Shown here piece by piece: positions 19,736 through 36,521 of a DNA stretch of 64,000 nt. The notes under the pieces were generated by a model. It saw only the letters and a program-made list of their open reading frames with translations, searched no databases and was not told the DNA's origin. The stretch is from Planctomyces sp. SH-PL62 (GTDB lineage Bacteria; Planctomycetota; Planctomycetia; Isosphaerales; Isosphaeraceae): contig NZ_CP011273.1 of the NCBI RefSeq assembly GCF_001610895.1, positions 1,736,001 to 1,800,000 on the forward strand, given 5' to 3'. How positions within the stretch are numbered: the first letter of the stretch is position 1; each line of letters begins with the position of its first letter. The position numbers and the translations under genes were made by a program.

Positions 19736-22700
19736 TCATCCATCCGACCGCCAGGGCCAGGCCGCAGGCCCAAAGAGCCAGCGGCCCCCCGCCACGGCCG
19801 CGAGCGAGAGGCTCGCGGCGGCGATCAGGCTCTGCGCCCCGACCTGGCGCGCCGAGGTCAGCCCGGCCAGACCGAGCCCCATCAGAAGCGCCAGGAGCAA
19901 GAGGGAACGGGCTCGGCTCTCGCTGACGCCGACGTAGCCGGCCGCCCGATCGGTCTCGATCGGCAGGTGGATCGGCGGATCGTCCAGCCCCGGCGCGGAG
20001 CCGACGAAGAAGCGGGGCCGCCCCAGACGCCGCATCCGCTCGCGTTCGGCCTGCACCGCGATCCCGGTCGCGGCCGGCGAGGCCCCCTCGGCTTGCAAAC
20101 CCAGGTAGGTCAGGGCGTCCGCCACCGGCTCCTCCAGGCCCGTCGAATGCAGGGCCTCGACGAGTTGCAGCCGCGACCCCTTGATCACGTCGAGGTCCCG
20201 CGCCGCGCGATCGCGACGCCCCCGGTCGGCGGACCGCGACGCGGCCAGCAACGCGCGCTCGGCGCCGCGAAGGGCCGACTCGTGCTCGATCAGGAGCGAC
20301 ACCAGCCGTCCGCGGTCGCGGCCCGAGCCGCGATCCATCTCGGCGATCAGGTCGACGACCTGGCGCGCCACGCGATCGGCCCGCTCCAGTTGCTGGCGCT
20401 CCGGCCCGACCGCCTCCAGGCCGAGCGACGAGGCGTCGATCGCCTCGTCGGCCGGCAGGTGGAGGACGACCAGCGTCGGCGTCCGTCCGTCCCCCACGCG
20501 AGGCAGTCCGAGGTCGCGACGCCCCTGGATCTCGGCCCCCGCCCCGGCGCCCTCGGCGGCCCAGGTCAGGGTGACGCTGCGGGCGGCCTGGTCCCCCAGG
20601 GGGATCACCCATCGTGATTCGGCGTCGAGCAGCGGCCTCACGGCCGCGCCGTCGACCGCGGCCCGCAGCAGGCGGCCCGCCTCCGGGGGCGCGACGGTCA
20701 GGAACGGGCCCGATCGGGGCTCCGTCCGGTACGTCGCCGTGCCCGTCGCCCCGCCGTCCGGCGCGAGCACGCAGAGGAGCTCCGCATCCCGCACCCGCGC
20801 GGTCACGTCGCCTCCCCCCAGTCCCGCGTCGTCCCCCGTCGGGGTCTGGACGTCGAGCGACCAGCGGTCGACGTCGACGTCGACGTGATACGCCCTCGCG
20901 GCCAGGCCGGTCGCCGCGCCGAACTCCTCGTCCTGGAAGCGGCTCGCGTGCGAGATCTGGCGAAGCCCGGCGGAGCCGGCCGTCGTCGGCACGGTCGCCG
21001 TGGCGAAGACCAGGGCGACCGCGGTGTCGACCACCCCGAGCCCCAGCGGGACGACCTTCGGAAAGCCGACCTCTTGCCCGGCGGCGATCGGCGCACGTGA
21101 GCGCAGGACCACACGCTGAGAGCCCCAGATGGGACGCTCCGGCGTGATGGTCCAGAACGTCCAGCCGTCTCGGGATTCGGTCGTCAGCTGATGCTCCTGG
21201 CCCGTGAGCCGGAGCCGGGCGTGCGGTGCCCAGGCGGCGGGGACCTTCAGATGGATCGCGTCCAGCGGACCCCCCGCCACCTCGTAGCGGAGCACGGCGA
21301 TCCACTCGGCCGAGTCCGGATGGATCGTCAACTGGCTCCCGACCAGGACGTTCGGACGCGGGGGCTGGGGCGTCCAACGCAGCTCGCCGACCTGGGTGGG
21401 ATCGTCGATCCGGTAGGATTGGCGGGTCCAGGCGCCGCCGGGCTCGGTCGGCTCCGAAGTGACGAACGCCGCGCCGCCGGGGGCCGTCGCAAGATCGACG
21501 ACCCCGCGCGAGAGCACCTCCAGCGTCCCGGCCGAACCTCGGCCTTCCGCCGCGTCCGGCCAGGGGAGCCGGAGCCGATGCTGGCGGGGTCCCGGGCCGG
21601 GCTCGAGCCGAGCCACCGGGATCCAGCCCCGCACCTTGATCGTCCGTCGGGATTTCAGGTCGATCCGGTCGAACCGGACCTGGAGGGGCCCCCCCGACGG
21701 CCGGCTCCAATCGGTCATGCCGGCGGACTCGACATCGAGCAGGATCAGTTCGTCCGGCAGCGCCACCCCCACCCGATCGAGCAGCCCGGTGATCTCGGAA
21801 TGCTCGATCTCGTAACGGCAGTCCACGCGGCCGGCGTCGACCTGGAGCTGCACGGAGGGCTTGAGACGCCATCGAGTGGGGGTCGGGCCAGTCCGAAATT
21901 CAACGACGTCCTGGGGCTTGAACCGGACGGTCCCGGCGAAGGTCAGGACGTCGTCGGGCAGGGCGCCCCAGGCGCGCACGAAGGACTCGTCGCCGACCGG
22001 CTCGGCGTCCCTGGGGGGCTCGAGCCGCCCCGTCCAGTGCCCCGGCCGCCGCACGGCCAGCAAGCCCGACTCGCGCTCGACGCCCATCGGCTCCACGCGC
22101 GGGAACCGCCGGGCGACCGGGCCGGGGGCCTCCGTCCCCCCCTCGCCTCGGAGGGGCCGCCAGAAGTCCAGGAAAATCGTCGTCCGATCGGGAAGCGGGG
22201 GGTCCACCCGAGCGACCCATTCGGGGTTCTGCGGCGTCCCCCCCCACGAGGCGTCCACCAATCCGGGGATCTGGACCGAACGCGGAATCAGGCCCGGCTC
22301 CAGGGCGATCCGGATCGTCGAGGTCCGCCGCCGGGTCCGGTAAGTCAGACGGGCGCGGACCCGCTCGCCGGCCGGGTCCAGGTCCCAGAGCATCAGGCTC
22401 TCGACGGTCGCGGAAGGCTGGTCGAGATCTGGATTGGGCGACGTCCAGGAGATCCCGATCCGGTCGACGGGCCCGAGCACGGCCTCGATCGTCTGGTCTC
22501 CCTTGGCGATGACGCGGCCCCGGGCGACCAGTTGCTGCACCGGACGGCCCCCGGGAGGCTGCTCCAGCGTCAGCCGGGCGAACGGGGCGCGGTTGACCTT
22601 CAGGTCGAGCGTCTCGAGGGAGCCGTCGCGGAACGGAGAGGCGGTGCGACGGACCCGCAGTCGGCTCGTCCGACCTCCGGGGATCATGACGACCGCCACC

Positions 22701-25700
22701 TCTCCCCCCGGCCTGACGATCACCGGAGCCCGGACGTCGTCCAGCGCGGCGACGAGGTCCCGCGCCCCGCCGACCGGGAACTCGAACGCCGTCGCGGGGC
22801 CGTCGCCGACCCGGACCGAGTAATCGCTCTCGACGGCCAGGTCCAGCTCCCCGCCCCGCGCCACGCGATGCTCGGCCGCGAGGATCGAGGCCCGCTCCTC
22901 GGCTTTCGGAGCCGGGGCCTCGCCGGCCCTCGCGAGCCGCTCGTGATCGGCCTGGCGGAGGATCACCCGCGAGGGGGCCGCGGCCGGGTCGAACGCGCCG
23001 TCGTAGGGGAAGAGCGCGAGGATCGGGGGGGATTCGACGGGAGGCTGGAACGCCGAGGCTCGGGACAGGCCGATCGTCGCCAGGACCCACGCGGCGACCC
23101 GAAAGCCGCGACGGAACCGCGCCGAGGTTCGCCCGACGCGACCCGACCCGGGCGCGCCTCGGCCGCGAAGCGTCTCGCGCAGGAGCCGGCCCAGACGCAC
23201 GAGGAGCGTGATGAACGCGCCGACGAACGCCCCGGCGCTCACCGGGGGGGGAGCCGCCTCCCACCAGTCGTGCAGCACCACCGACGCGATCATGAGGAGC
23301 AGCGGCGCGATCAAACCCCGACGCGGGGAGACGGCCCGACGCAGCCCCACCGCGATCACCGCAAGCGCCGCCACCCAGCCCAGAAGCGCCCGAGTACCGG
23401 CGTCGGCCGTCTCGACCCAGGCGTCGGGCCCCGGCCAGGAACTCGCCGTCAAGCGCGAGGTCGACCAACCCGAAGCCCGACCGCGTCGGTCGGCCGGCGC
23501 GGAGTTCGTCGGCGTCGAATCGATCGGGGTCGACTCGCCTCGCCAACGCGTCGACGACTGGAAACGGTCGGTCGCGTCCGCTCCCCAGAGGATCGCCTCG
23601 GCGACCGCCGAGCGCCACGTCGCGGAGCCCGAGAGCGGCCCCGCGGCGCGTCGGGATGTGACGAGCAGCGCGTCGTCGACCAGGAGCAGGACCAGGCCGC
23701 GAGACTGGAGCGCCGCGAGCGATTTCGGCCCCCCCGCCGCGTCGACGGGGGTCGGGGCCGGCGTGTATCGTGATCGCGGGCCGAAGCCCTCGGCGGCCAG
23801 CGCCGAGCGATCGACGATCAGCGGCTCGGCGCCCGCGTCCCATCGAATAAACGCCTCGGCGAGCGTCAGGTCCTCGGTCGGCGCCTCGCCCAGCGATTCG
23901 TCGAGCCGCCGCAGGACGTCCTCGCGCGGCAGCCGCATCGCGGCCCGCTCGCCGGGCCATCGCCACCGGGCGACCCCCAGCGATCCGAAGGGCCAGGGGG
24001 GCCGGGGTTCGGTCGAATCGACGACGAAGCCGGGCCCCGCCTCGTCGAGCGTCAAGCCCGGGGAGAGGATCAGCTCCCAGCTGAACGAGAGGCAGGGGAG
24101 GCCGAAGTCGGGTGCCGTCGGCCGGAGCCGGCCGCCGGACGGCGCGACCGACGGTTCGAGCCGGTAGTCCAGCTCGACGGCCCGCGTCGGCTCGCCGGGC
24201 CCGGAGGGGAGGGGGATCGAGACCTCGTCCCCCACCCGCGTCGGGTCGACGGCGCGGCCGTCGACCCGCGCCGAGACGAGGACCGATCCGGCCGGCGCCT
24301 GGAACGTGAGGGCGTCGGTCTGGTCGGCGGCCACGAGCGTCCAGAGGCGGTTGAGGGAGCGGCCGTCGGGGAAGGCGCGGGTGGTCAGGCGGGCGTCGCG
24401 GATCAGCCCCCTGGCACGAGCCGGGGTCAACTCTTCCGTGGCGAGATCAAGCCGGCTGCCGGGCGTCGAGTACGTCATGGCCTGCGACGTCCAGCCGGCC
24501 GGCGGCGATGGCCCGCCGGCCCGCGCGGCACCCGCCGCATCGGGACCTGGCGCGAGCGTCTCGGCGAGCGACGCCTCGATCCGACTCAGCCCCTCCCCCG
24601 TGATCCGGCTGCGAACGTGTTCGGGGGTCTCGATGACGACGACGCCGCGGGGGGAGTCCGCCCCCGGGAGGCAGGGGAGCGGCACGGTCCCTCGCCCATC
24701 CCAGGCAGTCGAGGAGGCGAATCGGACCGTGGCCCGCCCCTGCGCCGAGGTCTCGGCCGCCAGCTCCAGGACCACGCCGCCGTCGGGGAACCCGAGTCGT
24801 CGGCGATCGGACTCCGCGAGGATCGTTGGCGCCAGCCGATTCCCATCGGCCGCGTCGGTGAACGTCCAGGCGCCGAGGTCGCCGGCCCGAGCGTTGATCC
24901 AGACTCGCGCCGCGGGGTCTCCGCCGCCGGCCGTCGCGATCGTGATCCAGCCGGAGACGGCGAGCTTCCGTCCTCGTTCCTCAAGCCTCGCCTTGACGTG
25001 GACCCAGCCTCTCGAGCTGGGGTCCACGCGCAGGACGTCTACGGGCGCCTCGGCGTCGTCGGCCGTCCATCGCCAGGCCAGGACCGGCTTGAGGTCGGCC
25101 GTCTCCGGAGATGCGGCCTGGAGCAGGCCGGGCGTCTGGACGGGGTCGATCCAGTCGAGCCCCCTGGTCTCGCCAGGTTGGAGCTGGATGCGGCCCGCCG
25201 CCGTGGCCACCCAGGCCTCGTCGGCGACCCGCCCCCGGGTCGGACGGACGCGGGGCAGCATCAGGCGCTTCGGCGCGTCGACCGGGCCGGCGGCGACCGC
25301 CCCCACGAGGAGCGTTCGGCCCGAGGGGGCCGCGTCCGACGCCGGGGCCAGCACGCGGAGCAGGGTCGAGCCGTCGGGTCGCACCGTCCGGCTCCAGGGA
25401 GGCGCCCCCTCGACGCCCGCCAGTTCCACGCGATCGACGGCCCAGCCGGCGGGGAGTTCCAGCTCGTGCTCCGGGGCCGATCCGGGGAGGCCCAGGCCCG
25501 CGACCTCGCATTCCAGCCGGATCGAGGACGGTCGGAGCGCGAGCCGCCCGCGCAGGGTGTAGACCGGCTCGTTCCCGGCGGCGCGGAAGGTCAGCTCGGC
25601 CGCCGAGCCGGGCGCGGCCGATTCGAAAACGAGAACCGTGCCTCCCACGCCCGCCGTTTCGCCCGGCGGCGGCGGGACCCGACGGCCGTCGCGCTCCCGG

Positions 25701-26830
25701 CACTCGCGGACGACGTGGCGCTCGTCCAGGAGGATGGTCGTCGTCCCGCCGGTCCAGGTCAGCGGGGGGAGCGGGCGGATCGCCGGCACGTCCCAGGCGC
25801 CCTCGGCCGGGACCCGGGCGTGCCCCCGGAATCGGACCGGGACGGCCTCGCCGCCGGGGGTCGCCATCCAGACGACGGCCCGGCGCGGCGTCCCTTCCTC
25901 GACGCGGAACTCCCGGACGGTGGGGCCCTCGACGCCCAGCAGGTCCAGGCCGGGATCCAGCTCGACCGTGAATGTCCCCCCGCCGGGCTCGTCGGCCTGG
26001 ATCGTCCAGTCGGTCGTCCAGTTGACCGGCCGGGTCGCCAGGCGATCGACGGCGTTCAGGTCGATCCGCGTCGGCCCGCCGACCCAGATCCGAGACGGGT
26101 TCCCGGCCGCCCTCGTTTCCGCCAGGTTGGTCAGCCGGAGGTCCAGGGCGCCCACCCGGCCGTGGAACCGCCAGGTCTCGCGATCCGGGGCTTCACCCGG
26201 CGAGGGTCCCTCGCGACGCACGGCCGCCCCCGAGGGTTCCCAGCCGACGGGGACGTCCAGGGTCAGGCTGGTGGTCTCGTCGCCGGGCAGCGACAGGCTG
26301 AAAATCCGCCCCCGCGAGTCCGGGCGCGCCCGCAGCTCCCACTCCAGCACGAACGTCGCCTCTCCCGGTTTCGCCGCCGACGGCGTCTCCAGCCGAAGGA
26401 AGCTCTCGCCCGTCGCCGAGGAAGCGACCGCCGCCCCGGACTCGGGCCCCTTCAGGATCGCCGGCGACCACGGCTCGATCGACACCGACGCCGAGCCCGG
26501 CGGCGTCGCCGCCACCAGCTCGGAACGGCCGACCAGGAGTCCCGAACTGAACCTCGCGAAGTGGCGGGCGCGGACGAGCCGGGGGCCGCCCCGCTCGCGG
26601 TCCCGCCCTCGCGCCTCGACCGCGCCCAGCAGCGCGTCGAAGTCCGTCGGCGACAGGACCCGCAACGGGGTGTCCGGCGGGAACTGGGACGCGACCTGGC
26701 CCGACGGGATCCGAACCCGCACGACCTCCGGCGCATCCCCCTCGCCCCCTCGGGCGGCCGGGCCGACGACGAGCGCGAACACCGCGACGAGCGCGGCCGG
26801 CAGCGAGAGGCTCGAACTCGGGACTTCCAT
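19736..26830 (-). CDS. Giant secreted/membrane protein made of two fused units (function unknown)
   Basis: 2364 residues. A signal peptide (SLPAALVAVFALVVGPAARG) is followed by a beta-rich ectodomain of about 1100 residues and a cluster of three hydrophobic helices (about 1145-1215). A second signal-like stretch, AAWVLATIGLSRASA (about 1245), follows. A second beta-rich ectodomain with a helical part then ends in two membrane segments. Each half starts with a similar strand motif (RVLSPTDFDALL; RVILRQADHERL) that also begins the 1150-residue neighbour (VVILQGAADVEEFW). The protein therefore looks like two neighbour-type units fused. There is no enzyme motif I recognise. The frame extends to 27460, but ATG 26830 lies 5 bp after the upstream stop and precedes the signal peptide. 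An envelope role is inferred. Confidence 0.8.
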   Translation of the reverse strand: MEVPSSSLSLPAALVAVFALVVGPAARGGEGDAPEVVRVRIPSGQVASQFPPDTPLRVLSPTDFDALLGAVEARGRDRERGGPRLVRARHFARFSSGLLVGRSELVAATPPGSASVSIEPWSPAILKGPESGAAVASSATGESFLRLETPSAAKPGEATFVLEWELRARPDSRGRIFSLSLPGDETTSLTLDVPVGWEPSGAAVRREGPSPGEAPDRETWRFHGRVGALDLRLTNLAETRAAGNPSRIWVGGPTRIDLNAVDRLATRPVNWTTDWTIQADEPGGGTFTVELDPGLDLLGVEGPTVREFRVEEGTPRRAVVWMATPGGEAVPVRFRGHARVPAEGAWDVPAIRPLPPLTWTGGTTTILLDERHVVRECRERDGRRVPPPPGETAGVGGTVLVFESAAPGSAAELTFRAAGNEPVYTLRGRLALRPSSIRLECEVAGLGLPGSAPEHELELPAGWAVDRVELAGVEGAPPWSRTVRPDGSTLLRVLAPASDAAPSGRTLLVGAVAAGPVDAPKRLMLPRVRPTRGRVADEAWVATAAGRIQLQPGETRGLDWIDPVQTPGLLQAASPETADLKPVLAWRWTADDAEAPVDVLRVDPSSRGWVHVKARLEERGRKLAVSGWITIATAGGGDPAARVWINARAGDLGAWTFTDAADGNRLAPTILAESDRRRLGFPDGGVVLELAAETSAQGRATVRFASSTAWDGRGTVPLPCLPGADSPRGVVVIETPEHVRSRITGEGLSRIEASLAETLAPGPDAAGAARAGGPSPPAGWTSQAMTYSTPGSRLDLATEELTPARARGLIRDARLTTRAFPDGRSLNRLWTLVAADQTDALTFQAPAGSVLVSARVDGRAVDPTRVGDEVSIPLPSGPGEPTRAVELDYRLEPSVAPSGGRLRPTAPDFGLPCLSFSWELILSPGLTLDEAGPGFVVDSTEPRPPWPFGSLGVARWRWPGERAAMRLPREDVLRRLDESLGEAPTEDLTLAEAFIRWDAGAEPLIVDRSALAAEGFGPRSRYTPAPTPVDAAGGPKSLAALQSRGLVLLLVDDALLVTSRRAAGPLSGSATWRSAVAEAILWGADATDRFQSSTRWRGESTPIDSTPTNSAPADRRGRASGWSTSRLTASSWPGPDAWVETADAGTRALLGWVAALAVIAVGLRRAVSPRRGLIAPLLLMIASVVLHDWWEAAPPPVSAGAFVGAFITLLVRLGRLLRETLRGRGAPGSGRVGRTSARFRRGFRVAAWVLATIGLSRASAFQPPVESPPILALFPYDGAFDPAAAPSRVILRQADHERLARAGEAPAPKAEERASILAAEHRVARGGELDLAVESDYSVRVGDGPATAFEFPVGGARDLVAALDDVRAPVIVRPGGEVAVVMIPGGRTSRLRVRRTASPFRDGSLETLDLKVNRAPFARLTLEQPPGGRPVQQLVARGRVIAKGDQTIEAVLGPVDRIGISWTSPNPDLDQPSATVESLMLWDLDPAGERVRARLTYRTRRRTSTIRIALEPGLIPRSVQIPGLVDASWGGTPQNPEWVARVDPPLPDRTTIFLDFWRPLRGEGGTEAPGPVARRFPRVEPMGVERESGLLAVRRPGHWTGRLEPPRDAEPVGDESFVRAWGALPDDVLTFAGTVRFKPQDVVEFRTGPTPTRWRLKPSVQLQVDAGRVDCRYEIEHSEITGLLDRVGVALPDELILLDVESAGMTDWSRPSGGPLQVRFDRIDLKSRRTIKVRGWIPVARLEPGPGPRQHRLRLPWPDAAEGRGSAGTLEVLSRGVVDLATAPGGAAFVTSEPTEPGGAWTRQSYRIDDPTQVGELRWTPQPPRPNVLVGSQLTIHPDSAEWIAVLRYEVAGGPLDAIHLKVPAAWAPHARLRLTGQEHQLTTESRDGWTFWTITPERPIWGSQRVVLRSRAPIAAGQEVGFPKVVPLGLGVVDTAVALVFATATVPTTAGSAGLRQISHASRFQDEEFGAATGLAARAYHVDVDVDRWSLDVQTPTGDDAGLGGGDVTARVRDAELLCVLAPDGGATGTATYRTEPRSGPFLTVAPPEAGRLLRAAVDGAAVRPLLDAESRWVIPLGDQAARSVTLTWAAEGAGAGAEIQGRRDLGLPRVGDGRTPTLVVLHLPADEAIDASSLGLEAVGPERQQLERADRVARQVVDLIAEMDRGSGRDRGRLVSLLIEHESALRGAERALLAASRSADRGRRDRAARDLDVIKGSRLQLVEALHSTGLEEPVADALTYLGLQAEGASPAATGIAVQAERERMRRLGRPRFFVGSAPGLDDPPIHLPIETDRAAGYVGVSESRARSLLLLALLMGLGLAGLTSARQVGAQSLIAAASLSLAAVAGGRWLFGPAAWPWRSDG

Positions 26831-26835
26831 CGACG

Positions 26836-29800
26836 TCACTCCGTCCTCAGGCGGCGCGGGCTGAGCGAGGCGTCCGACTCCGGCTGGGGCGACGGCGTCG
26901 AAATGTAGTCCATCGTCGAGGACGTCCGAACGCGGATCGCCGTCGAATCGTCCGAGCCGACCCCCGGCGCCGATCGCTGCGAGGACTCCCCCACCACGAC
27001 GTTCGACATCGAGGTCCCCCGAGCCGGCGGCGCGGTCGCGCCGCGTCGCAAGGTCCAGCGCCGGCCTACATGAACGAGCGCCCCGAAGGCGATCCCGAAG
27101 GCCGCCGACTGCACGACGAGCGCGAGCACCCCGGGGGGCAGGAACATCGCGGTCGGGAGCCCTACGGCCACCACGGCCCCGACGAGCCACGGCGTCGTGA
27201 TCGGGACGAAGAACAGTCCCACCGCCCCCAGCAACGCCAGGCCCGAGCAGACCAGGACGGTCCAGGCGCGCGAGACGACCCAGGGGTTGATCGGCGAAGG
27301 CGGCCCCACGCGACTGAACAGGTAGCCATGCGAGATCGCCTCGACGTCGAGCGCGTCGTCGACCGCCGCGGGGGGCGCCGTGGGCCCCGCCGCCCACGCG
27401 ATCAATCCGGCCGAGGACGCGACCGGCCGACGCTTCCACGCGTAGACGTCCCAGTACCATTCATTCTCATCGGCCCAGCCCCGAGGCTGCCCGGCCACGG
27501 CCTGGCTCCAGGGGACCTGCACCAGCCAGTAGGCTTGCAGCACCTCGGCGTCGTCGAGCAGGGCGGGGGGGAGCCAGGTGCGACGGACTCCGGCGGCTGG
27601 AAGCCGATATTCCAGGTCGAGGAGCAGCGGCCGGGCGATCGAGTCGGCAGGCAGGTCGATCCGGCTGGTCGTCCCGTCCGGGCCGACGTCGATCCGATCC
27701 AGAGTCCGACCGTCCACCCGCGCCCGCAGCCAGCGCGCGCCCTCGGGGAGCGCGACCGAGAGCCAGGCCGGGTGCGAATCGACCGCATACCAGGCGCGGA
27801 CGCGAAGGTCGCCCTCGGGCTCGAGCGTCGACCGGATCAGCGCCCGCGACGCCACCGTCGGGGGAAGGACGACCGTCTCCACCAGGCGGGCCGCGACCGC
27901 CAGCCCCTCGGACTGGTCGTCGCGATCGAGCCGGTACGCCCGGCCGGTGCGGGGACCGGGAGGCGAGGGCTCGTCGATCTCGGCCCAGGCCGGGTCGTCC
28001 ACGGCGACCTGCACGTCGGGCTCCGTGGAAAGCTCGACGACGCAGCCGCCGGGCGTCCCTTCCTCGGGCTCGATCCAGGGGATGCGCAGGGGCGTCGGGC
28101 TCGCCGGGTCGAGCGAGCGGCCCAGCGGGATGCGATACTGGAAGGTCAGGACGGCGGCGTCGACCACAGGCCGCTGGAAGTGGAGCCGCGACCGCCGCGC
28201 GCCGGATCGGGCGTCCTCCAGGTCCTCGGTCCGGATCGGCTGCTTCTCGTCGGACGCCTCCCAGCGGGCCGAGACCCCGACCGGGACGACGACGTCCAGA
28301 TACGGCAGCGCGCCGTGGCGCACCCGCAGCGTCGTCTCCTGGCGAACCTCCACCGTCCGCCGCGAGACCCTCGCCGTCAGCCGCGTCTCGCGACGCACCG
28401 CCAGCGGGCGCCGTTCCAGGCGAAGGTCGAGCGTGGCCGGGTTGCGGCCGGTGCGAAGCCGGAGGCCGGGAGGCCGGAGATCGGCCTCGGCGCCGGGGGG
28501 GGGCGGGGGCGGCTCGGCGGCGGTCTCCTTGACGAGCGTGGCGTCGCGAGGCTCCAGGCTGACGTCCCGACCGGCCCGGACGACGAACGCGGCGTTCGTG
28601 GAGACCGCCCCGCGAGCCGCGAACAGGCCCAGCCGCACGTCTCCCGGCCCCGGAGCCGGCTGACGGCCCGACAATTTCAGGCTGAAGGCCGGGCGGTCGC
28701 GAGCCTGGGACGTCAGGCGGATCTTGAGGATCCGCTCGGCGTCGGCCGGATCGGCCGCGGCGGCGGCCGCGTCCGGCTGGGGGGGCGTGGCCGCCTCGAC
28801 GAGATCCGGCGGGCCGACCGAGACGACCTTCATGTCCGCCGGCACGGCGACCTCGACCTCGAACAGCGTCCCCCGCACCCGACGCACCTCGAGGGTCGTC
28901 TCGTTCCTCACCACCTCGGGATCGAGCGAGAGTTCCGCGACGGCCTCGGTGCTGAAGAGCGGGGGCGCGTCCTCGACGCCGATCGCAAGGGCGAACGGCT
29001 GCTCCAGGAACTGCAACGCCAGGGTCGTCCCCGGCCGAGCCTTCAGCGCGGTGGGGAGGTCGCGGGGGTCGATCCGCCGCAACCCCTGGGACTTCGCCAC
29101 GTTCACGAACAGGTTCGGCCCGTGGGTCACCCCCAGGAAGCCCGACTGCTCGCCGGCGTCGGTCAGCGGGTATCCCGAGAAGTTCAGGAGCCGGGTCCCC
29201 GAAGCCGGCCGCCGCGTCTCCAGCACCAGCTTTCGCGACTCGCCCGACCTCATCGGCTCGGCCAGCGGGATCGTCAGCAGGTTGCCGCCGCCGGAACGCT
29301 CGATCCCCGACGCCGGGAACTGGTCGTTGAGCTGGATCCGCGAGACGACCTCGTCGTCTTCCAGCCGGATCTGGAGGCTGCGGGCCACGCCCCGCGCGCA
29401 GGCGATCGCCCAGGACGAGCGGACGACCACCCCCTCGGCGTCGACGACCACGGCCATCTCGACCTGGGCCGCGAGCAGCGGCGCGGCGCGCTCGCCCGCT
29501 TCGCCGGGCTCGCTCCAGCTCACGACGAGCGGCGACCTCGGGGCGACGTGCGCGGCCACCCGCAAGCCCTCGCCCCCCTCCACGGGGGTCGGCCGCAGGG
29601 CCTCCCCCGGCCCGGCGTCCACGTCGTACGACCGTCGCGGCAGGACCAGGTCGAACGAGGTCGCGGGCGCCTCGGGGATCGCCAGTTCCAAGGTCCGACG
29701 CTCGGCGTTGATCCGCACCGGAGCCGTCGCTTCGATCCGCAAGGCGTGCGTCCGCGCGCCTTCCAGCCGGGCCTCCCACCGTCCCCCCGCGCCTCGACGC

Positions 29801-30288
29801 AGCTCCAGCTCCCGGTCCCCCTCGCGGGCGGCCAGGACGACCGGGGCGTCGATCTTGAGCGGGACCCAGGCCGGGCCGGCGGTCATGAGCGAGCAGTCGA
29901 CGCCGATCGCGATCCGGGCGTGATCCCCGCCCACGGTCCCCTCGACGCGGACCGCGTCGACGATCGACTCGTCGGCGTTCCCCGGAGCCGCCCCTCGCAG
30001 CCTTCCGGGCGCGGGGCGTGAGATGACCCAGTCGGGAGCGCCGAGCTTCTTCCAGAATTCCTCGACGTCGGCCGCGCCCTGGAGGATGACGACCTCGTCG
30101 GGCCAGATCGGGGCCGCCGGCGTCGCCGCCGCGGGAGGCCGAGCCGCCGCCGTCGCGGGCGGGGGGGCCGTCGGGGGAGCCTCCTGTCCGCGGGCCGTCG
30201 CGACGACCGCCGCGACCGCCGCCCAGCACGCGACGAGGCGACCGACGCGCGCGCCCAAGTTGTTGCCGGACGATCGCGAAACTCTCAA
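26836..30288 (-). CDS. Large secreted protein with C-terminal membrane cluster (function unknown)
   Basis: 1150 residues. The signal peptide is around VACWAAVAAVVATARG, followed by an Ala/Pro-rich linker and the motif VVILQGAADVEEFW. A long beta-rich ectodomain then contains a module with GARWLRARVDGR and LDLEYRLPAAG, which recurs in the giant protein as SVLVSARVDGR and VELDYRLEP. Three or four hydrophobic helices follow (about 1000-1075), then a Ser/Pro-rich cytoplasmic tail. The longest frame starts at a TTG (30288) without a ribosome site; a TTG 11 codons later is the alternative. Its stop is 5 bp before the giant gene, so the two are surely cotranscribed. Confidence 0.78.
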   Translation of the reverse strand: MRVSRSSGNNLGARVGRLVACWAAVAAVVATARGQEAPPTAPPPATAAARPPAAATPAAPIWPDEVVILQGAADVEEFWKKLGAPDWVISRPAPGRLRGAAPGNADESIVDAVRVEGTVGGDHARIAIGVDCSLMTAGPAWVPLKIDAPVVLAAREGDRELELRRGAGGRWEARLEGARTHALRIEATAPVRINAERRTLELAIPEAPATSFDLVLPRRSYDVDAGPGEALRPTPVEGGEGLRVAAHVAPRSPLVVSWSEPGEAGERAAPLLAAQVEMAVVVDAEGVVVRSSWAIACARGVARSLQIRLEDDEVVSRIQLNDQFPASGIERSGGGNLLTIPLAEPMRSGESRKLVLETRRPASGTRLLNFSGYPLTDAGEQSGFLGVTHGPNLFVNVAKSQGLRRIDPRDLPTALKARPGTTLALQFLEQPFALAIGVEDAPPLFSTEAVAELSLDPEVVRNETTLEVRRVRGTLFEVEVAVPADMKVVSVGPPDLVEAATPPQPDAAAAAADPADAERILKIRLTSQARDRPAFSLKLSGRQPAPGPGDVRLGLFAARGAVSTNAAFVVRAGRDVSLEPRDATLVKETAAEPPPPPPGAEADLRPPGLRLRTGRNPATLDLRLERRPLAVRRETRLTARVSRRTVEVRQETTLRVRHGALPYLDVVVPVGVSARWEASDEKQPIRTEDLEDARSGARRSRLHFQRPVVDAAVLTFQYRIPLGRSLDPASPTPLRIPWIEPEEGTPGGCVVELSTEPDVQVAVDDPAWAEIDEPSPPGPRTGRAYRLDRDDQSEGLAVAARLVETVVLPPTVASRALIRSTLEPEGDLRVRAWYAVDSHPAWLSVALPEGARWLRARVDGRTLDRIDVGPDGTTSRIDLPADSIARPLLLDLEYRLPAAGVRRTWLPPALLDDAEVLQAYWLVQVPWSQAVAGQPRGWADENEWYWDVYAWKRRPVASSAGLIAWAAGPTAPPAAVDDALDVEAISHGYLFSRVGPPSPINPWVVSRAWTVLVCSGLALLGAVGLFFVPITTPWLVGAVVAVGLPTAMFLPPGVLALVVQSAAFGIAFGALVHVGRRWTLRRGATAPPARGTSMSNVVVGESSQRSAPGVGSDDSTAIRVRTSSTMDYISTPSPQPESDASLSPRRLRTE

Positions 30289-30450: not shown

Positions 30451-32394
30451 TTACTTCGCGGCAGGGGCCGCCGCCGGCTTCAGCGCGCCGTCGTCAAGGA
30501 GTTTACGCCAGGCGGCGTATCCTTGTTCGGGCCGGTCGGCGTCGTAGGCCGGGGCGTCCCGTCCGGTCAGCCGAATGAGGTTGTCGATCGCCAGTTCGCG
30601 GACGGCCAGCGACTCCTCGTCGGGCGAAAGGTCCTTGACGAGAGAGGCGAGCGTCTCGGGCCGCGCGGCGTCCGCCGGCGCGAAGCCGAGCAGCAGCTTA
30701 CCGAGGCGGTCGCGGTCGTAGTCGCCGAAGTCGAGCTGGAGTTGGTCCCAGGCCCGCCGCGAGGCCGCCTCGCCCGACGAAAGCTCCTCGCGGATCGCGG
30801 CGACTGCGGCCCGACGGGCGGCCGGATCGCCGGGACGGTCGAGGATCGGGGTCAGCAGCGAAAGGTCGCCCAGGCCCCGGAGCGCGGCGACGGCCATCCG
30901 TTTGACGTCGGCGTCGTCGTTCTCGGTGGCCGAGACGATGTCCGCCAGCACCGGACGATCCTCCGAGAACTCCTTGAGGCAATGTTCCCGGAGGGCGGTC
31001 AACTCGGCCGACGCCGGCTTCTCCGTGATCCATTCGGGCGCTCGGGCGTCGGTCAGGCGTTCGATCGCCCCAGCGGCGTCGACCCGGACGCTCGCGGGCC
31101 CTTTCACCTTCTCCGTGGCCTTGACGGTCTTGATCGCGACCTCCCCGCCGGGTCCGACGTGGATCGTCAACGGGGGCTGGCCGGTCGCCGCCCGGCCGTA
31201 CGCCCAGTGGCCGTCGGAGTCGAAGCCGAGGGCAAGGTCGGCCGGGCGGTCCAGGTCGACGATCCGTCCCTGGAACGAGACGTGCAGCGGGCCGGCGGCG
31301 CTCGTCGGCTCGGCCAGGATTCGGCCCCGGACCAGTTCCACCGACGGACCGCCGTCGGTCGCCGCGGGGAGGAACCGCACCTCGGAGTCTTCCAGCAGGT
31401 TGACGGCTCCCTGGGAAGTCGCCAGCCGTCCGGCGAACGGCGGGGCGGCCATCACGCGGTCGCCCGCGTCCACGGCTTCGCCCTCACGGCTCCGAACCCA
31501 TTCGCGCAGGTCGCCGTCGTATCGAAGGAGCATGCCGTCGATATGGTCCACCACGGCCGCGGCGCCGGCCGGCACCTGGACGGCCGCCGGGGCGGGCTTG
31601 GGTACGGCCTCGGCTTTCGGCTCGGATTTGGGCTCGGCATTGGCCTCAGCTACCTCGGGGAGCCCTTCCGCGTGGTCGTCGGCCTCGGGCGTCGGCCCCT
31701 TCGCGACGTCGGGTTCCACCACGGCCACGGCGGGGGCTTCGACCGCCGGGGCGGGGGGCGTCATGGGGCCGATCGCTGCGTCGGCTCGCCCCGGCACGTC
31801 CCTCGCGATGGCCGGCGCGGCCGAGCCGTCCGGCTTCAGGCTTTCGTAGGCCGACCAGGAGAGGAGGGCGATGAGGGCCAGGCAGGCCGCGAGCGGACCG
31901 AACCGTTCGAGCCAGTGCCGGCTCGGTCGGGCCTGGACGACCCAGGGGGTGATCGGCTGGGTGCGAGGGTCGACGGCCGGAGCCTCCTCGTCGACCGTCC
32001 CGGCGCGCGCCTCCCGACCCTTGACCAGCAGGTACATGCGGGCCTTGGCTTCGGGCGGGACCTGCACCCGTTGCCCGAGCAGGCTCAGGATCTGGTGGAC
32101 GCTCGCCGCCTCCGCGAGGTTGACGTCCGAGGTCAGGCACTTCTTCTCGTATTCGGCCACCTGCTCGGCGTTCAGGTCGTTGTCCAGATAGCTCGCCACG
32201 AGGTTCGGGTCGGTGGCGTCCGCGCCCTTCTTCCCCGGCACCGTGAGCCGTCGTTGACGGGTCACCCGATGGATGCGCTGCACCAACTCCTGCGCCAGCG
32301 GGCTGCTGCCCACCTGCTTGCCGATCTCCCGCACCTGCACCGGCGGCAACGTGTCGTCGAGCCAGGCCAGCAGCGTTCTCAAGGTCAGTCGCAT
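30451..32394 (-). CDS. FecR/anti-sigma-like membrane protein with HEAT-like C-terminus
   Basis: 647 residues. The N-terminal ~160 are helical and cytoplasmic (MRLTLRTLLAWLDDTLPP, then SYLDNDLNAEQVAEYEKKC), like anti-sigma N-domains but without the His-Cys zinc motif. One transmembrane helix lies near 165-183 (LAACLALIALLSW). An Ala/Glu/Pro linker leads to a FecR-like beta domain (GDRVMAAPPFAGRLATSQ, VNLLEDSEVRFLP). The last ~200 residues are helical repeats of HEAT type (KRMAVAALRGLGDLSLLTP). It probably senses envelope state and leads the giant-protein locus, 163 bp upstream of the 1150-residue gene. No sigma factor gene is in the window. ATG 32394 follows GGGGGGAAGG. Confidence 0.75.
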   Translation of the reverse strand: MRLTLRTLLAWLDDTLPPVQVREIGKQVGSSPLAQELVQRIHRVTRQRRLTVPGKKGADATDPNLVASYLDNDLNAEQVAEYEKKCLTSDVNLAEAASVHQILSLLGQRVQVPPEAKARMYLLVKGREARAGTVDEEAPAVDPRTQPITPWVVQARPSRHWLERFGPLAACLALIALLSWSAYESLKPDGSAAPAIARDVPGRADAAIGPMTPPAPAVEAPAVAVVEPDVAKGPTPEADDHAEGLPEVAEANAEPKSEPKAEAVPKPAPAAVQVPAGAAAVVDHIDGMLLRYDGDLREWVRSREGEAVDAGDRVMAAPPFAGRLATSQGAVNLLEDSEVRFLPAATDGGPSVELVRGRILAEPTSAAGPLHVSFQGRIVDLDRPADLALGFDSDGHWAYGRAATGQPPLTIHVGPGGEVAIKTVKATEKVKGPASVRVDAAGAIERLTDARAPEWITEKPASAELTALREHCLKEFSEDRPVLADIVSATENDDADVKRMAVAALRGLGDLSLLTPILDRPGDPAARRAAVAAIREELSSGEAASRRAWDQLQLDFGDYDRDRLGKLLLGFAPADAARPETLASLVKDLSPDEESLAVRELAIDNLIRLTGRDAPAYDADRPEQGYAAWRKLLDDGALKPAAAPAAK

Positions 32395-32578: not shown

Positions 32579-32785
32579 TCAGGCCGGGCGACGCGACGAG
32601 TTCCCTCGGGCGTCGAGTTCGTCGCTTCCGGCCAGGACGCGAGGGGGCCGGGCGCGGCTGGTCCGCATCGCGCCAGTCGCGGCCAGGTACATGGCTTCCA
32701 GTCGTTCATCGCTCCGGCCCGCGGCCCGAAGCACCGCGAAGGTCATGGTCAGAAAGATCCCATAGCAGCAGATGAGCGCGAACAT
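32579..32785 (-). CDS. Putative 68-residue single-span membrane protein
   Basis: ATG at 32785 is preceded by GGAGG at ten bases. The product begins MFALICCYGIFLTMTFAVL, a clear single membrane helix, then a charged tail (SDERLEAMYLAATGAMRTSR). It lies upstream of the FecR-like gene on the same strand, with 184 bp between. The size and lack of a family match leave it uncertain; the helix and ribosome site are the only support. Upstream of it (32786-33033) is an A+T-richer stretch with no gene. Confidence 0.4.
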   Translation of the reverse strand: MFALICCYGIFLTMTFAVLRAAGRSDERLEAMYLAATGAMRTSRARPPRVLAGSDELDARGNSSRRPA

Positions 32786-33033: not shown

Positions 33034-33456
33034 TCAATCCTGGGGGATGAGGTGGGGGTTCCAGACGATCTCCCAGAGGTGCCCGTCGGGGTCCTGGAAG
33101 TAACCCGCATAGCCTCCCCAGAAGGCGGCCCGGGCCGCCTTCACGATCAAGGCCCCCGCGTCGGCCGCCTGCCGCATGACGACGTCGACCTCGTCCCGCG
33201 AGGCCACGTTGTGCCCGAGCGTGAACTCCGTGGGGCTCGGGTCGCGCAGCGGGAGCTCCGAATCGTGGGCGAGGCTGGCGCGCGGCCAGATCGCCAACTT
33301 CAAGCCCGGCTGGAGGTCGAAAAAGGCCACGGCGCCATGCTCGAATTCCTCACCGACGATCCCGTCGGTCGCCAGTCCGAGGCCGTCTCGGTAGAACCGG
33401 AGCGACCTCTCCAGGTCGTCCACAGCGAGCGTGACGACGCTGAGTCGAGGCTTCAT
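33034..33456 (-). CDS. VOC-family (glyoxalase/bleomycin-resistance fold) protein
   Basis: 140 residues with the two beta-alpha-beta-beta-beta modules of the vicinal-oxygen-chelate fold. The first has LAVDDLERSLRFYRDGLGL and HGAVAFFDLQPGL; the second has DEVDVVMRQAADAGA, GGYAGYFQDPDGHLWEI with metal-ligand-like His and Glu. The substrate is unknown. ATG 33456 shares its A with the TGA of the upstream glycosyltransferase gene (TGATG), with GGAGGAAG ahead of it inside that gene. Translation is therefore likely coupled, although a functional link to a membrane glycosyltransferase is not obvious. Confidence 0.9.
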   Translation of the reverse strand: MKPRLSVVTLAVDDLERSLRFYRDGLGLATDGIVGEEFEHGAVAFFDLQPGLKLAIWPRASLAHDSELPLRDPSPTEFTLGHNVASRDEVDVVMRQAADAGALIVKAARAAFWGGYAGYFQDPDGHLWEIVWNPHLIPQD

Positions 33457-35741
33457 CAGGAACTTCCTCCAGGGGTCACGGACCGATCGGCCCTTCGATT
33501 CGAGTCGGCGGGCGCGGACGGTTCGATCCCACCCCGAACGCGATACAGCCGGAACCAGGGGTCGCCTTCGCGAACTCCGTAAAGAGGCTCGAAGGTCTCG
33601 GGATGGGAGTCGGCCCATTGGCGTTCGACCGGGAAGCCTTCGGCGTCGGCGACGTTGTGCGCCCCTTCGCCGGGATTGACCCGGGTCACGACCAGGAGCT
33701 GAATCGCTTCAGCCCGGAGGTTGGCGAGCCAGGCGTCGTAATCGGGGCGTTCACGATCCCAGCCGGGCCGGGCGTTGGGCCATTCGCCTCGTCCCTCGGC
33801 GCGAGCCCGGCGGTGGAAGTCGTGCATCAGCCAGTGGGGCGGCCCTTCGACGTTCACGTACCGGACGTTGTTCCGGAGTCCCGATCCCATCAGGTAATAG
33901 GGAATGTTCGTTCCCGCGTAGGCGATCCGCGAGCCGGTCGGCCCGGAGCGGGCGTCCAGTTCGATCCATCCCCGATAGAAGTCCGGGAAGGCGGGAAAGG
34001 CCAGGAGGCGCCGATCGCCGGCGAAGGGGACGATCTGGGACCAACCCACGACAGCCGACAGGCCGATCGCGGCGAGCCCGGCCATCCAGGTCGCGGCGTC
34101 GGGACGCCCTCGCCGCAGCCGAGCCCCGGCCCAGACGATCAGCCCGGCCACCACCGCCAGCACCGGCACGTCGAGCGCCGAGAGAAACTCGAAGCCTGAG
34201 CGCGGCGAGGCCAGGCGAAGCAACTCAGATGCCAGCGGAAGGATCGGGGGGATGGCGTTGGGGATCTGGGGTGTGAGGTCCCAGGGGACGTCGGCGTCGC
34301 GCGGGCCGAACGGCCAGGACTGGGGGGTGGCGACGTGCAGCGCCAGCATCAAAGTTGCCGCGATCCGGAGCCATCGGCTCCGGTCGAGCAGACTCGCGAG
34401 CGGGACCACCGCCAGGCCGACCCCCTGGAGCATGAATCGCTGCTGCGTGCGGTAGGGGATGAACAACCAGTAGAGGGCCACGTTCAGGACGACTCCCAGG
34501 CTGAAGATCCAGACCCAGCCGTCTCCCCGACGCCGTCCGCGCCCGACCGCCCAAACGCCCAGAACCGCCGCCACCCATAGAGGTACGGTGCGAGCGTCGA
34601 GTACGCCGACCAGGGTATCGACCAGCGCCCGCCAGTTCGAAACCGGGATGTAATAGATGCTCCCCCGCATAGCCTCGGAGCCGTACCAGCCCGAAAGCCA
34701 CGTCGCCCCCCCGAGCTTGACCGTCAGGGGATAGAGCGGGTTCCCGGTCAGGAGGGCGTTTCGCGCGTACCAGAACCCCGAGGTCGTCGCCACGCCCGTC
34801 AGGATCGTCGCCAGCCCCGCGAGCGTCGGCCGGACGGCCCGCGTCCGCCGCGCGACGGCCCAGCAACCGGCGAGGAGCAGGGGGGGGACGAAGAGATTGC
34901 CGACCGATTTCGTCCCCAGCGCCTCGCCCGCCGCGAGCCCCCCCAGCAGAAGCGCGGGCCAGCCGTCGCGTCCCTCGGCGAATCTAAGGAAGAAGTAGGC
35001 GGCGGTGAGGTATCCGGCGACGAAGATCGTGTCGACGTTGGCCTCGAACGTGAAGAGGACGAGCGGGCCGACGGTCGCGAACAGCGAAGTCGCCACCAGC
35101 GACGCCGTCCGCCCCGCCCCCAGTTCTCGGGCGCAGCCGAAGGCCGCGATGCACGCCAGTCCCAGGAAAGGGGCCTGACCGACCCGGGCCAGGCGATCGC
35201 CCCCCCAGGTCGCCATCAGCCAGGCGAACCAGAGATCGCCGTTGGCCGGGAAGTAGGTCGCCGCGCTCTCCCCGAAGGGCGAGGCCACGAGGAACAACCG
35301 CCCCGCCTGCCACCACCTCGCCGCGAAGTACAGGTGATAGATCGGGCCGTCGCTGACGACCTTCACCGGCATGAGCAGCGACGACGTCCCCAGGACGAGA
35401 GCCCCCCAGATCGCCAGGCCGACCGCCAGCCACCCCTCCCAGCCGATCGGCTCCGGCTCGGCTGGGGGCCCGTGATCGGCGTCCACGCCCCGGCCCGGCC
35501 ACGTCCGGGCGCACGCCAGCCCCAGGACGGCCGCCGCCAGCGACCAGCCCAGCAAGCTGGGGACGTTCAGAAATCCCAGCGTCCCCAGGAGTTGCACACC
35601 GACCGTGACCCAGGTCCAGGCGAGCACCCCCACGGCCAGGATTCGCGCCGGGCCGTGCGGCTGGCGCAACACGCGGGTGGCGCACCACCACGCGCCGAGA
35701 AGGACGAGGACGTTCGAGGACAGGAATGACAAGACCATCAT
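33456..35741 (-). CDS. Multi-pass membrane protein, GT-C glycosyltransferase-like
   Basis: About 761 residues with a dozen or more hydrophobic segments from the N-terminus (MMVLSFLSSNVLVLLGAWW) to about residue 580, then a soluble C-terminal domain (DFYRGWIELDARSG onwards). SDGPIYHLYFAARWWQAG and the following loop ATYFPANGDLWFAWL resemble the first periplasmic loop of GT-C enzymes such as ArnT, which use polyprenyl-phosphate sugars, but the usual DE pair is replaced by SDG. The activity is therefore unproven. Either of two adjacent ATGs (35741, 35738) may be used; no ribosome site is seen. It is divergent from the SIS isomerase gene. Confidence 0.75.
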   Translation of the reverse strand: MMVLSFLSSNVLVLLGAWWCATRVLRQPHGPARILAVGVLAWTWVTVGVQLLGTLGFLNVPSLLGWSLAAAVLGLACARTWPGRGVDADHGPPAEPEPIGWEGWLAVGLAIWGALVLGTSSLLMPVKVVSDGPIYHLYFAARWWQAGRLFLVASPFGESAATYFPANGDLWFAWLMATWGGDRLARVGQAPFLGLACIAAFGCARELGAGRTASLVATSLFATVGPLVLFTFEANVDTIFVAGYLTAAYFFLRFAEGRDGWPALLLGGLAAGEALGTKSVGNLFVPPLLLAGCWAVARRTRAVRPTLAGLATILTGVATTSGFWYARNALLTGNPLYPLTVKLGGATWLSGWYGSEAMRGSIYYIPVSNWRALVDTLVGVLDARTVPLWVAAVLGVWAVGRGRRRGDGWVWIFSLGVVLNVALYWLFIPYRTQQRFMLQGVGLAVVPLASLLDRSRWLRIAATLMLALHVATPQSWPFGPRDADVPWDLTPQIPNAIPPILPLASELLRLASPRSGFEFLSALDVPVLAVVAGLIVWAGARLRRGRPDAATWMAGLAAIGLSAVVGWSQIVPFAGDRRLLAFPAFPDFYRGWIELDARSGPTGSRIAYAGTNIPYYLMGSGLRNNVRYVNVEGPPHWLMHDFHRRARAEGRGEWPNARPGWDRERPDYDAWLANLRAEAIQLLVVTRVNPGEGAHNVADAEGFPVERQWADSHPETFEPLYGVREGDPWFRLYRVRGGIEPSAPADSNRRADRSVTPGGSS

Positions 35742-35798
35742 GTTCCGCGTCGATCCTGCTCCGGGCTCCATGGACTCCCCGCCCCCGCAGGTCTCTAC

Positions 35799-35828
35799 TT
35801 TACACGTTGCGGAACCGACTGCTATGAT
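35799..35828 (+). promoter_or_regulatory. Sigma70-type promoter of the SIS isomerase-ROK kinase unit
   Basis: TTTACA (35799-35804) and TATGAT (35823-35828) each differ from consensus at one position and are 18 bp apart. Transcription would start near 35835, about 65 nt before ATG 35901. It is the best-matched housekeeping promoter I see in the window. Confidence 0.65.
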
Positions 35829-35900
35829 CCCGGCGCGGAGAGGGATCGGTTGACGGGGCGGGGCCGACCGGCTCGCCCGGCGCGGGAGGGAGTGGCGCTG

Positions 35901-36521
35901 ATGCTGGGACAGACGCTGTCGGCGGGAGATTACCTCGCACGGGTACGCGACGAGATCGCGCGGCTGGACCTCCACGCGGTCGAGAACGTCAGCGAGGTGA
36001 TCGAACGGGCCTACGACGCGAACCGGTTCGTCTTCATCATCGGCAACGGCGGCTCGGGCGCCAACGCCTCGCACCTCTGCGAAGACCTGGCCAAATGCAC
36101 CCTCTGCGATTTCGAATCCCAGAAGCGGCTCAAGGTCCTGAGCCTCACCGACAACACCGCCGGCATCATGGCCTGGGCCAACGACGAGGGCTATGAGCGA
36201 ATCTTCCTCGAACAGCTCAAGAACCTGGCCTCCCCCGGCGACGTCCTGATCGCCATCTCCGGATCGGGGAACAGCCCGAACATCGTCAAGGCCGTCGAAT
36301 GGGGGAACGCCCAGGGGATGGAGACGGTCGGGTTCACCGGCTTCTCGGGCGGACGGCTGCAAGCGATCAACAAGCACAACCTGCACGTCGCCATCGACGA
36401 CATGGGGATCGTCGAATCCCTCCACCAGGTCGTCTTCCACTGGCTGATCGACGACCTCCACCGCCGCTTCACGGCCAAACATCAGCCGGTCGCTCGCAAC
36501 GGCGCCCAGGCGCAGCTTTGA
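35901..36521 (+). CDS. SIS-domain isomerase, GmhA (phosphoheptose isomerase)-like
   Basis: 206 residues, one SIS domain. FIIGNGGSGANASHLCEDLAK carries the sugar-phosphate loop and the catalytic-type Glu. VLIAISGSGNSPNIVKAVEW is the second phosphate loop. The C-terminal VESLHQVVFHWLIDDLH matches the Glu-x3-His-x4-His helix of sedoheptulose-7-phosphate isomerases. It probably makes or isomerises a phosphosugar for cell-surface glycans, but the DLAKCTLCDF segment departs from classical GmhA and a relative with another sugar is possible. GGAGGGAG lies nine bases before ATG 35901; an in-frame GTG at 35892 is too close to it. The ROK kinase follows after 3 bp. Confidence 0.85.
   Translation: MLGQTLSAGDYLARVRDEIARLDLHAVENVSEVIERAYDANRFVFIIGNGGSGANASHLCEDLAKCTLCDFESQKRLKVLSLTDNTAGIMAWANDEGYERIFLEQLKNLASPGDVLIAISGSGNSPNIVKAVEWGNAQGMETVGFTGFSGGRLQAINKHNLHVAIDDMGIVESLHQVVFHWLIDDLHRRFTAKHQPVARNGAQAQL

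Follow-up and report, generated by a model that had tools for sequence, protein, structure and literature searches.

The N-terminal saddle domain of M1 aminopeptidases (PF17900; LTA4H, PepN and ERAP1) and ribophorin I/Ost1 of the oligosaccharyltransferase (OST), which carries two saddle domains in tandem outside the membrane and a C-terminal anchor of one membrane helix, are the closest described counterparts of the proteins treated here. The luminal part of Ost1 comprises two domains that resemble each other and are mainly beta (PMC7226087), and Ost1 occurs in eukaryotes and in TACK and Asgard archaea (PMC11417166); for OST subunits besides STT3, prokaryotic homologues are generally missing, apart from Ost1 and Ost3, which have been reported from Asgard archaea (PMC10307638). 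More partial likenesses are offered by the ITIH heavy chains (VIT plus VWA), by the 321-residue Legionella chain lpg2210 (PDB 4g2a), titled putative nutrient binding protein, and by operons of the FecI-FecR type, in which an extracytoplasmic function (ECF) sigma factor is paired with a membrane anti-sigma factor. In this study, two adjacent genes, A and B, were investigated in a stretch of 64,000 nucleotides of Planctomyces sp. SH-PL62 (contig NZ_CP011273.1, positions 1,736,001 to 1,800,000; hereafter the window). A preliminary description, made from the sequence, had regarded A and both halves of B (units B1 and B2) as three tandem copies of one large envelope-protein architecture, two of them fused. 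Our analysis supports this view and adds that each unit is itself a tandem repeat, that the arrangement recurs across the phylum, and that the start of the preceding gene F probably has to be revised. The predicted fold of the A and B2 repeats is that of the M1 saddle domain (Z 12.4–13.3); unlike M1 peptidases, the A and B units are membrane-anchored arrays of about five such domains without catalytic domain or motif, and they differ from ribophorin I/Ost1 in having five domains, two or three helices and another C-terminal region.

Unit profiles were built from 18 A, 18 B1 and 17 B2 sequences, and profile–profile comparison aligned every pair end to end: A with B1 at 99.7% (E 3e-27, 781 columns), A with B2 at 99.7% (E 9e-27, 814 columns) and B1 with B2 at 99.5% (E 7e-23, 817 columns). 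When the reversed profile of a different unit served as the control, the values were 0.4–1.4% in 6/6 comparisons. Against its own reversed profile, A reached 3.4% and B2 0.8%, while B1 reached 40.8%, an outlier for which no explanation is offered. The last value, together with the alanine-rich proteins and the high-GC genome, speaks for a likeness due to composition or chance among beta proteins rich in Ala, Gly and Arg. Such an account has a negligible chance of being right, because the forward values of 99.5–99.7% contrast with those of all six cross-unit reversed controls, and the repeats are spaced alike in the separately made models of A and B2. The homology of A, B1 and B2 from end to end is thus well supported at the sequence level. 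Unrelated structures, or a similarity limited to composition, had been named in the preliminary description as outcomes that would speak against it; the units proved related by profile in all three cases and by predicted structure in A and B2, B1 not having been folded.

The internal organization of the units was resolved by comparing parts of the same profile. It is well supported that each unit consists of about five tandem beta domains of ~175 residues, followed by two or three membrane helices. Off-diagonal profile alignments were the basis for dividing A into repeats R1 to R5. Strong pairs were R2-R3 (99.2%), R2-R4 (98.8%), R3-R4 (98.4%), R2-R5 (95.3%) and R4-R5 (92.3%); weaker values were obtained for R1-R5 (70.6%), R3-R5 (62.8%) and R1-R4 (51.0%), and the lowest for R1-R3 (27.3%) and R1-R2 (15.6%), with reversed controls of at most 3.2%. 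The A repeat profiles found their places on B1 and B2 at 91.9–98.0%, in colinear order except for R2, which matched best at the R3 place. Manual reading of the strand lists put the repeat starts at residues 108, 271, 444, 630 and 812 of the A model and at 91, 251, 431, 602 and 790 of the B2 model. Counted with a lenient threshold (domain E below 0.5), at which one repeat may split into two matches, A of the window has five repeat matches and B ten; at least ten were found in 15 of 24 B-like open reading frames (ORFs) from more distant genomes, and 1–9 in the other nine. The internal module described previously (VDGR...YRL or an equivalent) was located in the repeat-5 region of A, B1 and B2 alike.

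The fold was predicted using AlphaFold2 (AF2) for A and B2 separately. The A model (17 sequences) had a mean predicted local distance difference test (pLDDT) value of 76.4 and a predicted template modelling score (pTM) of 0.36, and the B2 model (11 sequences) 71.8 and 0.40; the low pTM leaves the relative placement of the domains uncertain. In VIA-align, M1 aminopeptidase N-terminal domains matched the A model at Z 12.4–13.2, mostly at residues 103–261 and 269–440 with one row at 806–1005, and the B2 model at Z 12.5–13.3, mostly at residues 87–242. The single-domain rows had a root-mean-square deviation (rmsd) of about 2.5–3.8 Å over ~140–160 residues, and the few longer-spanning M1 rows 17–19 Å. 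The lpg2210 chain matched repeat 1 of B2 (Z 12.7, rmsd 2.5 over 153 residues). The top Foldseek match of both models was the human OST/translocon chain 8b6l_O (E 2.4e-9 for A, 3.3e-9 for B2), presumably ribophorin I; the ribophorin-type matches had low whole-model TM-scores (TMq 0.12–0.13). Among the VIA rows of A, the yeast OST chain 6ezn_A, presumably Ost1, ranked first (Z 14.3). The OST chains of yeast and human matched A at Z 12.8–14.3 with an rmsd of 12–21 Å over ~300–313 residues, so that the domain pair was not rigidly superposed, and the rows of B2 were led by M1 peptidases with an OST chain in 37th place (Z 12.6). These common Foldseek and VIA matches suggest that Ost1 shares the M1 fold. 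Weak Foldseek matches of B2 included CD109, alpha-2-macroglobulin and ITIH1 (ITIH1 E 3e-4), with low TM-scores for the macroglobulins. Some lineages also have a gene for a VWA protein beside the array, a further possible likeness to ITIH; however, no VIT family is among the Pfam matches shown for the relatives, and array and VWA are separate genes. Integrins ranked high in Foldseek and were rejected since their TM-scores were near 0.1. Viral models gave loose Foldseek matches, some of them to viral ITIH-like and M1-like proteins.

A profile of M1 N-terminal domains from 29 planctomycete loci was compared with the repeats. It matched R2 at 94.2% (E 1e-7; reversed 0.5%), R5 at 63.7% and R3 at 21.7% (reversed 0.6% each), and these three matches began near equivalent repeat positions, in register. 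No useful match was obtained with this profile for R1 (9.9%, reversed 1.5%), R4 (1.8%, reversed 1.7%) or unit B2 (1.2%). Whole-unit A reached 80–88%; sets without the close family reached 16.1% (Oset), 9.5% (B1) and 1.2% (B2), with reversed controls of at most 1.4%. The A and B repeats therefore probably share the fold of the M1 N-terminal domain through remote homology, as judged from models and profiles, and no membership of the peptidase family is claimed. The Pfam model PF17900 had no match in A or B, and its single match in the window's genome lies in a 997-aa open frame far from the window. The motifs HExxH and GxMEN are absent from A and B of the window; by pattern, HExxH occurs in 1/38 A, 0/18 B1 and 1/17 B2 sequences, and GxMEN in none. 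The ribophorin I family PF04597 gave no match in the window's own genome, in a search whose control also matched in no genome, and is not among the Pfam matches shown for A, B and their relatives. The thioester motif CxEQ of alpha-2-macroglobulin is absent from A and B, and it is missing in some macroglobulins as well.

The closing membrane cluster of the preliminary description was recovered in every unit, with three hydrophobic helices in A and B1 and two in B2. Hydrophobicity and charge suggest a topology of signal segment, exterior array and, in A and B1, three helices with arginine-rich inner flanks. The tail of A, which would be cytoplasmic, falls below pLDDT 50 in the AF2 model and is predicted to be disordered. 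Its motif GSDDSTAIRVR was found by pattern in 16/18 close family members and in 0/20 more distant A proteins (9 + 11, including two divergent members of this family); the motif may serve for docking or as a target of modification. One relative, the A-type unit of locus L136 (L136:6193-10284), bears a LysM domain at its N-terminus (E 2e-8). An envelope location, as proposed previously, is thus suggested by N-terminal hydrophobic segments, membrane helices and a single LysM-bearing relative. The open reading frames of A and B agree with those given before (Table 1).

Table 1. Positions of the A/B locus and its neighbours in the window (aa, amino acids; residue numbers refer to the protein named)
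Feature	Position	Strand	Basis or remarks
Gene A, 1150 aa	26836-30288	-	TTG start; signal segment, five tandem saddle-type beta repeats, three C-terminal membrane helices, putative cytoplasmic tail
A repeat R1, residues 104-266	29491-29979	-	AF2 strands and PDB matches at 103-261; most divergent repeat by profile
A repeat R2, residues 265-443	28960-29496	-	Profile matches to R3/R4/R5; PDB matches 269-440; M1 profile 94.2%
A repeat R3, residues 440-628	28405-28971	-	Repeat-profile comparison; PDB coverage slight
A repeat R4, residues 625-806	27871-28416	-	Repeat-profile comparison; PDB coverage slight
A repeat R5, residues 803-1000	27289-27882	-	VDGR...YRL module inside; one M1 row 806-1005, one Ost1 row 628-1006; repeat and M1 profiles
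A closing membrane cluster, three helices, residues 1004-1084	27037-27279	-	Sequence and AF2 model
A putative cytoplasmic-tail motif GSDDSTAIRVR, residues 1111-1121	26926-26958	-	Conserved by pattern
Gene B, 2364 aa	19736-26830	-	ATG start; fusion of units B1 and B2
Unit B1, B residues 1-1223	23162-26830	-	Homologous to A and B2; cut at 1223 chosen by hand
B1 repeat array, about residues 96-930	24041-26545	-	Approximate, profile positions; A repeat profiles colinear, save R2
B1 membrane cluster, residues 1145-1217	23180-23398	-	Hydropathy only
Unit B2, B residues 1224-2364	19739-23161	-	Profile homology, AF2 model, PDB matches
Fusion junction with signal-peptide-like segment, B 1238-1265	23036-23119	-	Sequence; separate third genes of L129/L134 begin hydrophobic
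B2 repeat array, B 1314-2142	20405-22891	-	AF2 strands and profile/PDB matches
B2 helical insert past repeat 5, B 2143-2242	20105-20404	-	AF2 helices 920-1019 of B2 model
B2 closing membrane helices	19781-19906	-	Sequence and AF2 model
Gene F, 647 aa from MRLTLRT start	30451-32394	-	Possible anti-sigma-like N-terminus, one membrane helix, FecR-like and HEAT-like region
PMT-type glycosyltransferase gene	33456-36482		Overlong ORF; beyond F
Two genes in synteny in several family loci	35850-36521, 36525-37520	opposite to PMT-type gene	Beyond F

On the minus strand the genes follow in the order F, A, B, with the stop of F 162 nt before the TTG start of A and the ATG of B 5 nt past the stop codon of A. 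That two of the copies are fused in the window is borne out by two distant genomes, each of which has a complete gene of its own for every unit, with the order unchanged (L129: 1128, 1237 and 1138 aa; L134: 1202, 1419 and 1470 aa); five of these six genes have an N-terminal hydrophobic segment above threshold. A third candidate for separate genes (L132) was dropped because the contig ends within its second ORF. Fusion rather than fission is tentatively suggested by the signal-like segment between B1 and B2.

A FastTree tree of 63 units was made from 6/18 family loci and 11 A rows serving as outgroup; fused proteins had been divided by hand. The labels A, B1, B2 and ten-repeat required 5 changes on the tree against a shuffled mean of 32.9, and the separate genes of L129 and L134 clustered with the unit of equal position. 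From this unit-wise clustering, the triplication appears to be older than the lineages sampled. Some placements were odd: the Isosphaeraceae A clade and L055 stood beside B1, apart from the remaining A rows, and the two halves of L137 grouped with each other. Branches are long, the program warned of long-branch joins and some placements are doubtful, so the branching order was not relied on.

Among 40 related genomes (own included), single-sequence search found A in 29, B1 in 21 and B2 in 20. The search across Planctomycetota that the preliminary description had recommended was performed with the A profile, which matched 86/246 genomes, and 45/134 of those with a completeness of 90% or more and a contamination of 5% or less; these counts are lower bounds, as two candidates per genome were scored, and they cover Planctomycetota alone. 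Wherever A and B were found together, A preceded B. In one family (f2), each of the 12 genomes listed has two A-type matches at separate places. In genome G021, A and B (L070, L071) share a contig but are separated from each other and on opposite strands, the sole such case among the family loci inspected. Three loci (L138, L139 and L142) have sigma and VWA genes followed by one array protein of ~2120–2230 aa, with no separate A in the stretch fetched; this protein has ten repeats, several extra membrane helices in its middle and its own group in the tree. Two more loci (L198 and L199) have a similar layout of genes.

The gene neighbourhood was scanned in 68 loci, comprising 28 from the 40 relatives and 40 further loci chosen among the A-profile matches (35 from other classes and 5 from the same class; some of them include little sequence upstream). 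Directly upstream on the same strand, an ECF sigma gene and, after it, a zf-HC2/VWA-YfbK anti-sigma gene were found in 12/40 further loci, that is, in 12/35 of the other classes and 0/5 of the same class; in a thirteenth locus, a VWA gene at the contig edge is cut by the contig end. Neighbour profiles for sigma and VWA were built from seven of these loci. The arrangement resembles the FecI-FecR type but differs in that the anti-sigma factor has a VWA/YfbK exterior and that the window has no sigma-profile match. An inositol-monophosphatase-like gene precedes A in 12/68 loci of several families (L055, L057, L069, L072, L073, L076, L077, L078, L082, L135, L144 and L146). Genes for a PMT-type transferase were seen close by in 11 family loci, L059 and the window; in the window, two further genes also lie beyond F, the first of which (35850-36521) we take to resemble a sugar-phosphate isomerase.

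In the window's family, the gene upstream of A is F, which may encode an anti-sigma/FecR-like protein and occupies this place in 14/19 family loci holding A, besides the window. All 15 aligned F sequences contain MRLTLRT, and several ORFs begin there; the start of F is therefore most likely at 32394 and not at 32709, and the listed ORF of 752 residues is probably too long at its start. Pfam matches among 15 relatives of F were HEAT_2 (12), zf-HC2 (3, best E 1e-4) and FecR (1, E 0.007), and F of the window is in neither the zf-HC2 nor the FecR group. FecR (PF04773) had no match in the window's own genome at E 0.001, with a control positive in just 4/14. The FecR-like gene reported previously ahead of the copies is thus in place, with a weakly supported name. 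Comparison of F with a profile of VWA anti-sigma N-termini gave a weak 34% (reversed 0.4–0.5%). In view of the Pfam matches of its relatives, F is a plausible though unproven equivalent of the VWA anti-sigma factor.

No family over its cut-off was assigned to A, B or F by Pfam or NCBIfam. With Pfam, 27 A relatives and 16 distant units yielded single-member matches, mostly weak, the LysM of L136 being the one match over cut-off confirmed. Searches with A found nothing significant among PDB sequences (A profile) and no plasmid match. No description of A/B-type planctomycete proteins was found in the literature searched, including the accessible parts of PMC8567305 and PMC4973528; subscription journals were mostly outside its reach, so this is no proof of absence. 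Within these bounds, the system is undescribed, as had been supposed.

The architecture and homology are well supported, and from these and the neighbouring genes we infer a function. Our tentative reading, which has a fair claim without reaching an even chance, is that A and B form a scaffold or sensor anchored in the inner membrane, lying in the periplasm and coupled to sigma-factor signalling. The two proteins would build an assembly that is anchored in the membrane and has three paralogous subunits in the periplasm (or at the surface). Each subunit would be a rod of about five tandem saddle-type beta domains whose C-terminal helices fix it in the inner membrane, and the fusion would keep B1 and B2 together. 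The assembly would act in the cell envelope as scaffold or sensor, and a regulator, the product of the gene immediately upstream, would read its state from across the membrane. This regulator would be a zinc-finger/VWA anti-sigma factor, paired with an ECF sigma factor, in several distant lineages, and in the window's family the F protein, with a possible anti-sigma-like N-terminus, a membrane helix and a FecR-like and HEAT-like exterior. The reading is based on the homology and repeats, the AF2/PDB matches, the A–B order, the clustering of units in the tree, the sigma and VWA genes or F upstream, the zf-HC2 and FecR matches among F relatives and the LysM relative. Several observations weigh against it. 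The sigma, VWA and inositol monophosphatase profiles had no match in the 64-kb window, and no sigma gene was found in the family loci scanned; 27/40 further loci have no VWA gene, some of them with little upstream sequence, and in L135 and L193 the sigma gene is not adjacent or lies on the other strand, with no VWA gene. The anti-sigma nature of F is weak in both profile and zf-HC2 matches, and the repeats of A were not detected in the VWA protein or F by profile comparison. YfbK-type VWA genes occur in 27/40 relatives, including some without an A match (G008, G027, G035 and G039), and also elsewhere in the window's genome, so that co-occurrence of YfbK and A is uninformative as a link. In L082, no repeat was detected in the two ORFs of 575 and 721 aa that come after the A-type gene, and B was not found in that genome (G024); the A/B set is therefore not universal. 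Gene neighbourhood itself can mean co-regulation only.

This last point leads to a purely structural envelope or surface part, such as a scaffold, a peptidoglycan tether or an S-layer-like component, whose expression the upstream regulators merely control. Large repeat rods with membrane anchors in the A and B2 models, the LysM domain of one relative, the further loci lacking an adjacent VWA gene and the unrelated enzymes upstream of A in several same-class loci all agree with it; but two kinds of membrane regulator, VWA and F, stand directly upstream, which fits a shared task better than chance, co-regulation being possible, and we consider this explanation rather unlikely. Alternatively, the units might assist a membrane glycosyltransferase or translocon in the manner of ribophorin I, their saddle arrays keeping exported polypeptides or glycopeptides close to a PMT-type transferase. 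The top rank of the presumed ribophorin I and Ost1 chains, the two similar domains of Ost1 (PMC7226087) and the nearby PMT-type genes favour such a role, which nevertheless seems very improbable: the two-domain match to A is not rigid (rmsd 12–13 Å over ~310 residues), single domains match M1 peptidases equally and the B2 rows are M1-led, the numbers of domains and helices differ, a PMT gene nearby is largely a feature of one family, and the tail of A is predicted to be disordered where OST1 has a helical bundle (PMC11417166). A degenerate peptidase, or a surface protease trap of the alpha-2-macroglobulin/ITIH type, would account for a fold known from a non-catalytic domain of M1 peptidases and for the weak matches to CD109, alpha-2-macroglobulin and ITIH1; the absence of HExxH, GxMEN and CxEQ from A and B and the low macroglobulin TM-scores already disfavour it and leave it scarcely credible.

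A bolder form of the scaffold/sensor reading, speculative and on present evidence unlikely, is an undescribed planctomycete envelope machine in which three ancient paralogous arrays, with about fifteen saddle domains per set, form trans-periplasmic rods that signal the condition of the envelope, either mechanically or through a ligand, to exchangeable membrane anti-sigma readers of the VWA or FecR/HEAT type. The envelopes of planctomycetes are unusual and contain many proteins without assignment. The A/B set, recurrent in the phylum and without a matching Pfam or NCBIfam family, is now split into three putatively ancient paralogues and about fifteen domains of identifiable fold, thereby providing concrete targets and a testable link to sigma-factor signalling. 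The set would also take the saddle domain of ribophorin I and aminopeptidases, known in tandem in ribophorin I, into a membrane-anchored, non-enzymatic setting in bacteria.

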